DNA from: Alphaproteobacteria bacterium
Lineage (GTDB): Bacteria; Pseudomonadota; Alphaproteobacteria; CAAHEQ01; UBA3637
Direction of reading: 5' to 3'
DNA length: 39,433 bases
Assembly: GCA_015062395.1 (NCBI GenBank)
Contig: SUUS01000010.1
Span: forward strand, 1 to 39,433
Part shown: positions 37,761 through 39,433 of the stretch, in pieces
Layout of the letters: each line of letters starts with the position of its first letter
Numbering within the stretch: position 1 is the stretch's first letter
Position numbers and translations under genes: made by a program
Notes under the pieces: model-generated
Seen by the model: the letters and a program-made list of their open reading frames with translations, nothing else
What the model was told of the DNA's origin: nothing
The model's database searches: none

Positions 37761-38870
<1,110 letters not shown>

Positions 38871-38900
38871 ACGACAAAAATTTATGTTGTCAAAAAGACG

Positions 38901-38976
38901 CGTCATCCTGAACGTAAGTAAAGAATCCTTTTCCCGATGTATTTAGATTCTTTACCCTAAAAAGTTCAGGATGATG
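38901..38976. repeat. Palindromic intergenic repeat (REP-like) 1
   Basis: TCATCCTGAAC (38903-38913) is mirrored by GTTCAGGATGA (38964-38974), and inside it TAAAGAATC (38919-38927) by GATTCTTTA (38946-38954). The CATCCTGA...AAGAATC text resembles repeats scattered through many bacterial genomes. Confidence 0.8.
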
Positions 38977-39017
38977 TGTACCCTTTTTTCCGTCATCTAG
39001 TCCCCATTCATCCCAAC

Positions 39018-39052
39018 ACGTCATTCTGAAGGGCGTTAGCCCGAAGAATCTC
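39018..39052. repeat. Palindromic intergenic repeat (REP-like) 2
   Basis: CGTCATTCTGA-AGGGC-GTTA-GCCC-GAAGAATCTC. The core GGGC-GTTA-GCCC forms a hairpin, and ATTCT pairs with AGAAT outside. Related in sequence to repeat 1, same orientation of the CGTCAT motif. Confidence 0.8.
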
Positions 39053-39114
39053 TTGAGTTTTTCCCAAAAAATAAAAAATCTTCAAAAAAAGACCGTAGAA
39101 GGGCAAAAAAGGAC

Positions 39115-39150
39115 TTGACAGGGGGGGGGGGGGGGGGGGTATGTTATAAC
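39115..39150 (+). promoter_or_regulatory. Pilin-gene promoter with a G19 spacer, probably phase variable
   Basis: Perfect -35 TTGACA (39115-39120) is followed directly by 19 G (39121-39139), then TATGTTATAAC. Two -10 candidates: TATGTT (39140-39145, spacer 19) and TATAAC (39145-39150, spacer 24, with an extended TGT). TATAAC is the same -10 as in the tRNA promoter. For optimal 17-nt spacing the tract would be 17 G or 12 G respectively. Tract slippage would therefore change promoter strength. Confidence 0.75.
39121..39139 (+). repeat. Homopolymer G19
   Basis: Nineteen consecutive G in an otherwise AT-rich region; the longest homopolymer in the window. It cannot be explained by composition. 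Confidence 0.95.
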
Positions 39151-39151
39151 A

Positions 39152-39190
39152 ATAGCGTTGTACGACGATTTAAACGTCGTATAACGCTAT
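39152..39190. promoter_or_regulatory. 39-nt inverted repeat at the transcription start (operator or 5' hairpin)
   Basis: ATAGCGTT-G-TACGACG, loop ATTTAAA, CGTCGTA-T-AACGCTAT: 15 Watson-Crick pairs plus one G-T. It begins exactly where transcription from TATGTT should start. It may be a repressor operator, an mRNA-stabilising 5' hairpin or, with the following GTTTTTATG, a weak terminator/attenuator. Confidence 0.7.
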
Positions 39191-39234
39191 GTTTTTATGT
39201 GGGATACCCCCCCTTTTTTTGGAAGGTTTGAAAA

Positions 39235-39433
39235 ATGCAACAAAATCGTGATAAAAAAGCTTTGAAACAACACATTCAATTCGGTCGTTCGATGGTGGAA
39301 ATGTTGGGTGTATTGGCTCTGATTGGATTGTTGTTATTAGGGGGCATTGTTGGATATAAGACGGCCATGAACTATTACAGAGCCAACCAAACCATTCACG
39401 ATGTTATGTTGCGTGGATCCAATGTTCCCATGA
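39235..39433 (+). CDS. Type IV prepilin-like protein, 3' truncated by window edge
   Basis: Sixty-six codons are visible. A polar, basic leader of 17 residues (MQQNRDKKALKQHIQFG) ends in Gly. The next residues, RSMVEMLGVLALIGLLLLGG, form the class III signal: prepilin peptidase would cut after Gly17, and Glu at mature position 5 plus the following hydrophobic helix are the type IV pilin hallmark. YKTAMNYYRANQTIHDVM continues the helix. GGAAGG lies 8 nt before the ATG. It could be a major or minor pilin, or a T2SS-type pseudopilin; no pilus assembly genes are in view. The promoter has a G19 spacer, so expression is probably phase variable. Confidence 0.85.
   Translation, partial: MQQNRDKKALKQHIQFGRSMVEMLGVLALIGLLLLGGIVGYKTAMNYYRANQTIHDVMLRGSNVPM

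Follow-up and report, generated by a model that had tools for sequence, protein, structure and literature searches.

A poly-G promoter spacer carried on dispersed cassettes is very probably a phase-variation switch of prepilin-like genes in an uncultured alphaproteobacterium

INTRODUCTION

To our knowledge, slippage within promoter spacers has been described mainly for single genes of pathogens. In porA, a homopolymer lies between the −35 and −10 elements, and its length sets both their spacing and the transcription of the surface-protein gene (PMC2791445; PMC7864442). Both porA and tp0126 are transcribed optimally at a spacing of 17 nt (PMC7864442). The locus described here resembles porA and fetA of Neisseria meningitidis in having a homopolymer in the −35/−10 spacer of a predicted surface-protein gene. 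However, porA and fetA are single loci, whereas here a cassette occupies at least 10 loci of an alphaproteobacterium, has tracts of up to G19, and precedes prepilin-like genes. Treponema pallidum tp0126, which encodes an OmpW homologue, likewise carries poly-G between −35 and −10, but it is a single gene for a different protein in a different phylum, and what we find is a repeated cassette with an extended −10.

We conclude with high confidence that the G tract is a porA/tp0126-like promoter phase-variation switch of prepilin-like genes, deployed over many loci. A slippage switch is very probable because this genome has the device in front of 10 or more such genes, and related genomes have it in front of dozens. 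The type of switch is already known. In the open-access literature, we found no report of the device in this group, nor of its use at the promoters of many loci through a dispersed cassette alongside coding tracts in genes of one protein family. Several genomes of one uncultured family have ~10 to 30 such promoters each, plus a coding-tract device on an expanded prepilin-like family, which bears on the apparent confinement of multi-locus phase-variable genomes to pathogens. If the reading is correct, surface make-up would be set stochastically in each cell, and this would matter for adhesion, phage attack, and immune recognition.

RESULTS AND DISCUSSION

Architecture of the promoter

The window, by which we mean the whole stretch of DNA analyzed (39,433 nt), is a complete contig (G000:C8) of the source genome (G000; 1.36 Mb in 40 contigs). 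It carries the following features:

39019–39114, + strand: 5′ part of the dispersed cassette, beginning near CGTCATTCTGAAGGGCGTTAGCCCGAAGAATCTC (pairwise identity among ten loci)
39115–39120, + strand: −35 hexamer TTGACA, matching the consensus at 6/6 positions (sequence)
39121–39139, + strand: G19 homopolymer, the proposed slippage tract, filling the spacer (sequence)
39140–39145, + strand: TATGTT, alternative −10 register, with a spacer equal to the tract length (n = 19; sequence)
39142–39150, + strand: extended −10 TG-T-TATAAC, with TATAAC at 39145–39150 (sequence; recurrence of TGnTAnnnT in G010)
39152–39190, + strand: leader hairpin of 16 bp followed by GTTTTTATG, terminator-like, at or close to the point where the transcript is expected to begin (RNA fold)
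39207–39220, + strand: C7T7 stretch before the ribosome site (C5–C7 and T7–T9 among copies)
39221–39226, + strand: ribosome-binding site GGAAGG, 8 nt before the ATG (sequence)
39235–39433, + strand: prepilin-like gene, ATG at 39235, 66 codons, open at the window end, encoding G-RSMVE-MLGVLALIGLLLLGGIVGY (alignment; weak PilA profile matches)

The preliminary description of this DNA had reported an exact TTGACA, 19 G, TATGTT/TATAAC, and a prepilin-like gene with a good ribosome site, and each of these can be read directly in the sequence. The same holds for the spacers it implied, which from TTGACA measure 19 nt to TATGTT and 24 nt to TATAAC. G19 runs have a chance expectation of ~1e-8, given the window's own G-after-G frequency, and next in length within the window come runs of 8 A, 8 T, and 7 C. 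As in a porA-type switch, the homopolymer lies between recognizable −35 and −10 elements, and it is both longer than chance allows and positionally specific, as judged from the chance expectation and from reverse-pattern controls.

Because TG-T precedes it, TATAAC forms an extended −10. It is also the better general −10, since TGnTAnnnT recurs in nearly all fully read sites of G010, a genome from another genus of the family; the window's version, TGTTATAAC, ends in C rather than T and is an approximate fit. TATGTT, which serves as −10 in the E. coli lac promoter, represents a possible second register. We dropped it as the main −10: Across G010 it would imply spacers of only 11 to 15 nt, versus mostly 16 to 20 nt with the extended −10.

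A dispersed cassette with variable tracts

The preliminary description had suggested searching the genome for promoters of the form TTGACA-G(n)-TAT. We found nine sites in G000 where TTGACA is followed directly by G8+, with no match for the reverse-pattern control. A tenth cassette (C31) has TTGACG and an interrupted tract, and is the one exception to an invariant −35 TTGACA among the recurring copies. All ten loci are alike over ~100 bp up to the −35 (83 to 100% pairwise identity) and have unique outer flanks; in nearly all pairs, the shared upstream part stops ~78 to 125 nt before the −35. The leader is common to every copy long enough, and proteins of those reaching further begin MQQNRDKKAL. 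Each surface-protein gene would switch independently, because the cassette is one of 10 or more dispersed copies.

Tract length differs among copies at different loci of G000 that have near-identical flanks (G19, G18, G8AG5, and G9). Where both sides of a tract were read, the lengths are G19 (C8), G18 (C34), G8AG5 (C6), G9 with one T missing (C23 and C38), and G10TGAGG after TTGAC (C31); note that the assemblies are MAG-like and that misassembly may have altered tract lengths. Four of the ten cassettes terminate within the tract. The window contig ends 66 codons into the gene, where paralogous copies diverge. This is not surprising, given how many contigs break off in the tract or where the conserved pilin N-terminus ends.

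Contig ends in or near the tract, in genomes as fragmented as these, could point to a sequencing or assembly artifact, either dark-cycle poly-G or repeat collapse. Yet the tracts are anchored on both sides and always stand beside TTGACA in several genomes, with zero reverse hits in G000, G006, and G010, and an artifact would not choose −35 boxes. In-frame poly-C tracts exist as well. We regard this explanation as largely refuted and extremely improbable.

The cassettes themselves invite a different reading, in which the tract marks a seam of recombination: Variable pilin C-termini would be swapped between near-identical cassettes, leaving the G tract as a by-product. This is consistent with ten near-identical units (upstream 100 bp, promoter, leader, and pilin N-terminus) set in unique outer flanks, and with the window and sister contigs stopping at the end of the conserved N-terminus. 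It also agrees with one G010 locus (L027; G010:C15:1300) where TTGACA-G13 is joined straight to the middle of a prepilin N-terminus, with neither leader nor start codon, through recombination across the tract or misassembly. However, flanks in G010 are mostly unrelated outside the core, in-frame poly-C needs no recombination, and a seam leaves the fixed −35/−10 geometry unexplained. We therefore think the seam unlikely as the primary explanation, and favor the slippage switch.

Promoter geometry in related genomes

In G010, flanks are unrelated at most loci, and the core is kept: TTGACA, G11–15, and mostly TGnTAnnnT. Sequences after the tract include TATGATAGATT, TATGGTATTAT, CATGATAGAGT, TATGCTATAAG, TGGTATATT, and similar ones, nearly all of which contain TGnTAnnnT (TATGCTATAAG ends in G instead). 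The motif sits 2 to 3 nt past the tract in nearly all fully read sites. Total −35/−10 spacers are mostly 16 to 20 nt, with 17 and 18 present, and so lie near 17 nt. In G006, 2 to 7 additional bases precede the tract and the −10 is less regular; at several sites it is poor by consensus. G010 also has a poly-C version of the spacer, TTGACT-G-C13/14-TATGG-TAAAGT (L153, L166, L168, and L180). In G000, the poly-C paralogues have fixed promoters of the form TTGACT-17 nt-TAGAAT, from which we expect an optimum of 17 nt. The window spacing to TATAAC is n + 5, and the 17-nt optimum would therefore fall at G12.

This geometry also bears on the idea that the promoter is real and the tract acts other than by spacing, for example as a G-quadruplex or unusual duplex that blocks or recruits a protein. 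Runs of G11–19 could form such structures, and the Treponema tprL tract affects expression without a change in spacing (PMC7864442). By contrast, tp0126 and porA operate via spacing (PMC7864442). The −10 at a constant offset from the tract end, with total spacers around 16 to 20 nt, argues the same way for the loci studied here, and we consider a non-spacing action quite improbable.

Distribution across family, class, and phylum

Among the 43 family genomes, TTGACA-G8+ occurs outside G000 at eleven sites in G010 and is absent from the other 41. The looser pattern TTGACA-N0-8-G9+ has ~30 distinct sites in G006, 13 in G010, seven in G000, three in G040, and single sites in G001, G008, and G034 (distinct sites counted by hand from overlapping rows). 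Its reverse-pattern control gave one match in all 43 genomes and zero in G000, G006, and G010. Beyond the family, the strict pattern had four single sites in 380 other Alphaproteobacteria, versus five genomes with control matches, and none of 397 other sampled Pseudomonadota genomes had more than two TTGACA-N0-8-G9+ sites. With other genomes of the class and phylum at background, the multi-site pattern characterizes a few genera within this family. G-runs in G005 fall generally outside promoters and start codons and are also background. Three related contigs (L016–L018) had no G9+ run, and scans of IMG/VR for the leader palindrome and for the promoter core returned no match. The related records that carry names are MAGs of Alphaproteobacteria or Pseudomonadota, one of them from goat abomasum.

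Targets are mostly prepilin-like proteins

Considering sites with at least 320 nt downstream, a prepilin motif follows 10 of 14 sites in G010 and 10 of 19 in G006; reading the remainder adds variants and brings the counts to ~11 and ~14. A binomial test run beside these counts assumed a 3% background and is a rough guide. Most targets are large Cys-rich prepilin-like proteins, some of 743, 881, and 1059 amino acids (aa) in G010. Others are ankyrin-repeat proteins (L070 in G010, L277 in G006, and L293 at the single G001 site) and an MptE-like protein (L271), and proteins of glycosylation type occur among the targets.

In the alignment, G17 and E22 are invariant (Glu at +5 after Gly) and accompanied by a hydrophobic run, as in a prepilin cleavage site and helix. 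The proteins thus share with type IV pilins the Gly-(4 residues)-Glu arrangement and hydrophobic helix, but differ in an atypical Arg at +1, weak profile scores, and the very long Cys-rich C-terminal parts of relatives. The window protein has no Pfam match, its relatives fall below the cut-off for N_methyl (PF07963), and the best solved relative is the type IV pilin PilA, a weak profile match (E = 0.011). We use the name "prepilin-like" because scores against curated profiles fall below threshold. An NCBIfam match of the pilin to "YneF" (E = 8e-4) was rejected as a hydrophobic-helix match far below cut-off. Long poly-serine stretches occur in the C-terminal parts of three G000 proteins (L087, L082, and L094).

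Might the cassettes be decayed or silent, and the tract a neutral expansion? The interrupted tracts in C6 and C31, and the T missing after G9 in C23 and C38, would fit such decay. However, long open reading frames (743 to 1059 aa) stand behind intact G010 promoters, and conservation extends over the promoter core, the leader, and the ribosome site, making decay a very unlikely account of the family of loci as a whole.

Prepilin-like genes are greatly expanded in this family, with 103 matches in G019, 90 in G027, and 78 in G028 (genomes of 1.3 to 1.8 Mb), many of them open frames of 400 to 1250 aa, and at least one match in 43 of 43 genomes. In the sister species G001, of the same genus, none of the 13 prepilin-like matches has a G7+/C7+ run in the flanks that were fetched, and most of the prepilin-rich family genomes, including G019, have no such promoter. 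The device is thus not needed for prepilin-like genes. Because these genes do without it in G001 and G019, it seems, from this distribution, to have been gained or lost quickly atop an older prepilin expansion.

A second device within reading frames

Six prepilin genes of G000 have poly-C or interrupted poly-C directly after ATGTCCATTAATTTATTCAAATTTA. In G010, G006, G008, G011, and G012, many genes have C10–15 about 7 to 10 codons past a good ribosome site. Where the sequence suffices, mostly one length in three opens a long frame. Examples are L138 (C13, 276 aa), L150 (C13, 268 aa), L136 (C14, a 426-aa prepilin), and L106 (C10, a prepilin); L137 is closed at C15, and C16 would give 205 aa. 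A family 2 glycosyltransferase (L174), with its tract after ~16 codons, is closed at C13 and open at C14. Poly-C genes encode prepilins, Cys-rich secreted proteins, and others (L007, L082–L084, L086, L091, L094, L106, L132–L155, L206, and L276), although some matches from the mechanical poly-C scan are weak or uninformative.

Judged by these frames, poly-C after start codons is coding-type phase variation, with the signature of a classic coding-tract switch. Its presence supports homopolymer slippage as a general tool of these genomes. Neisseria and Campylobacter have comparable poly-C/poly-G coding-tract loci in surface and glycosylation genes, which the glycosyltransferase here recalls. Unlike those, the poly-C device shares its genome and protein family with a promoter switch.

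A model for switching

The preliminary description had taken the tract for a phase-variable promoter, a reading that our analysis supports. The arrangement recurs at many loci, both here and, amid unrelated flanks, in two other genera, and is at background elsewhere; tracts differ in length, yet the distance from tract end to −10 is constant, with spacers near the sigma-70 optimum; and targets are mostly of surface type, their paralogues having a second, coding-type tract.

Of the spacer that separates the consensus −35 from the extended −10 (TGnTAnnnT), the G tract makes up almost all. Under the model, slipped-strand mispairing at replication would add or remove Gs, changing the −35/−10 distance (n + 5 to TATAAC). 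At n ~ 12 (17 nt), sigma-70 RNA polymerase would fit and the prepilin-like surface protein would be made; at tract lengths far from this, it would not. Related genes in the same genome would switch through poly-C inside the reading frame. Slippage in living cells, length-dependent transcription, and surface display are parts of this model that we infer from sequence. The earlier suggestion that transcription may be low or off at the sequenced length (n = 19) is borne out for TATAAC, whose promoter would be off at 24 nt, but less so for TATGTT, which at 19 nt could give weak transcription. G16–18 might reopen the promoter in the TATGTT register.

We also lean, with less assurance, towards a broader picture: an uncultured, probably host-associated lineage with a large two-device phasome, in which tens of sigma-70 promoters with slipping G tracts, spread as repeat cassettes, and many in-frame poly-C genes would yield a combinatorial prepilin-like display. 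Two −10 registers 5 nt apart may provide two permissive windows (n ~ 12 and ~17).

Leader hairpin and neighboring sequences

The leader (39152–39240) has a predicted RNA fold of −30.5 kcal/mol (z = −5.5), and its hairpin is identical in every copy that reaches that far. It could stabilize the mRNA or stop read-through from upstream. We did not adopt the 5′ hairpin as a full attenuator: The predicted transcription start falls inside its 5′ arm, and a role as 5′-end stabilizer or read-through block is therefore equally likely.

REP-like intergenic repeats, e.g., CGTCATTCTGAAGGGCGCTAGCCCGAAGAATCTC, border the cassettes (38899–39054 in the window, and others) and also occur elsewhere in the genome. 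They may have helped to spread the cassettes. Directly upstream of the window cassette, a gene at 37770–38855 encodes a CcrM-like DNA N6-adenine methylase with a RAMA domain, which we record as a neighbor only.
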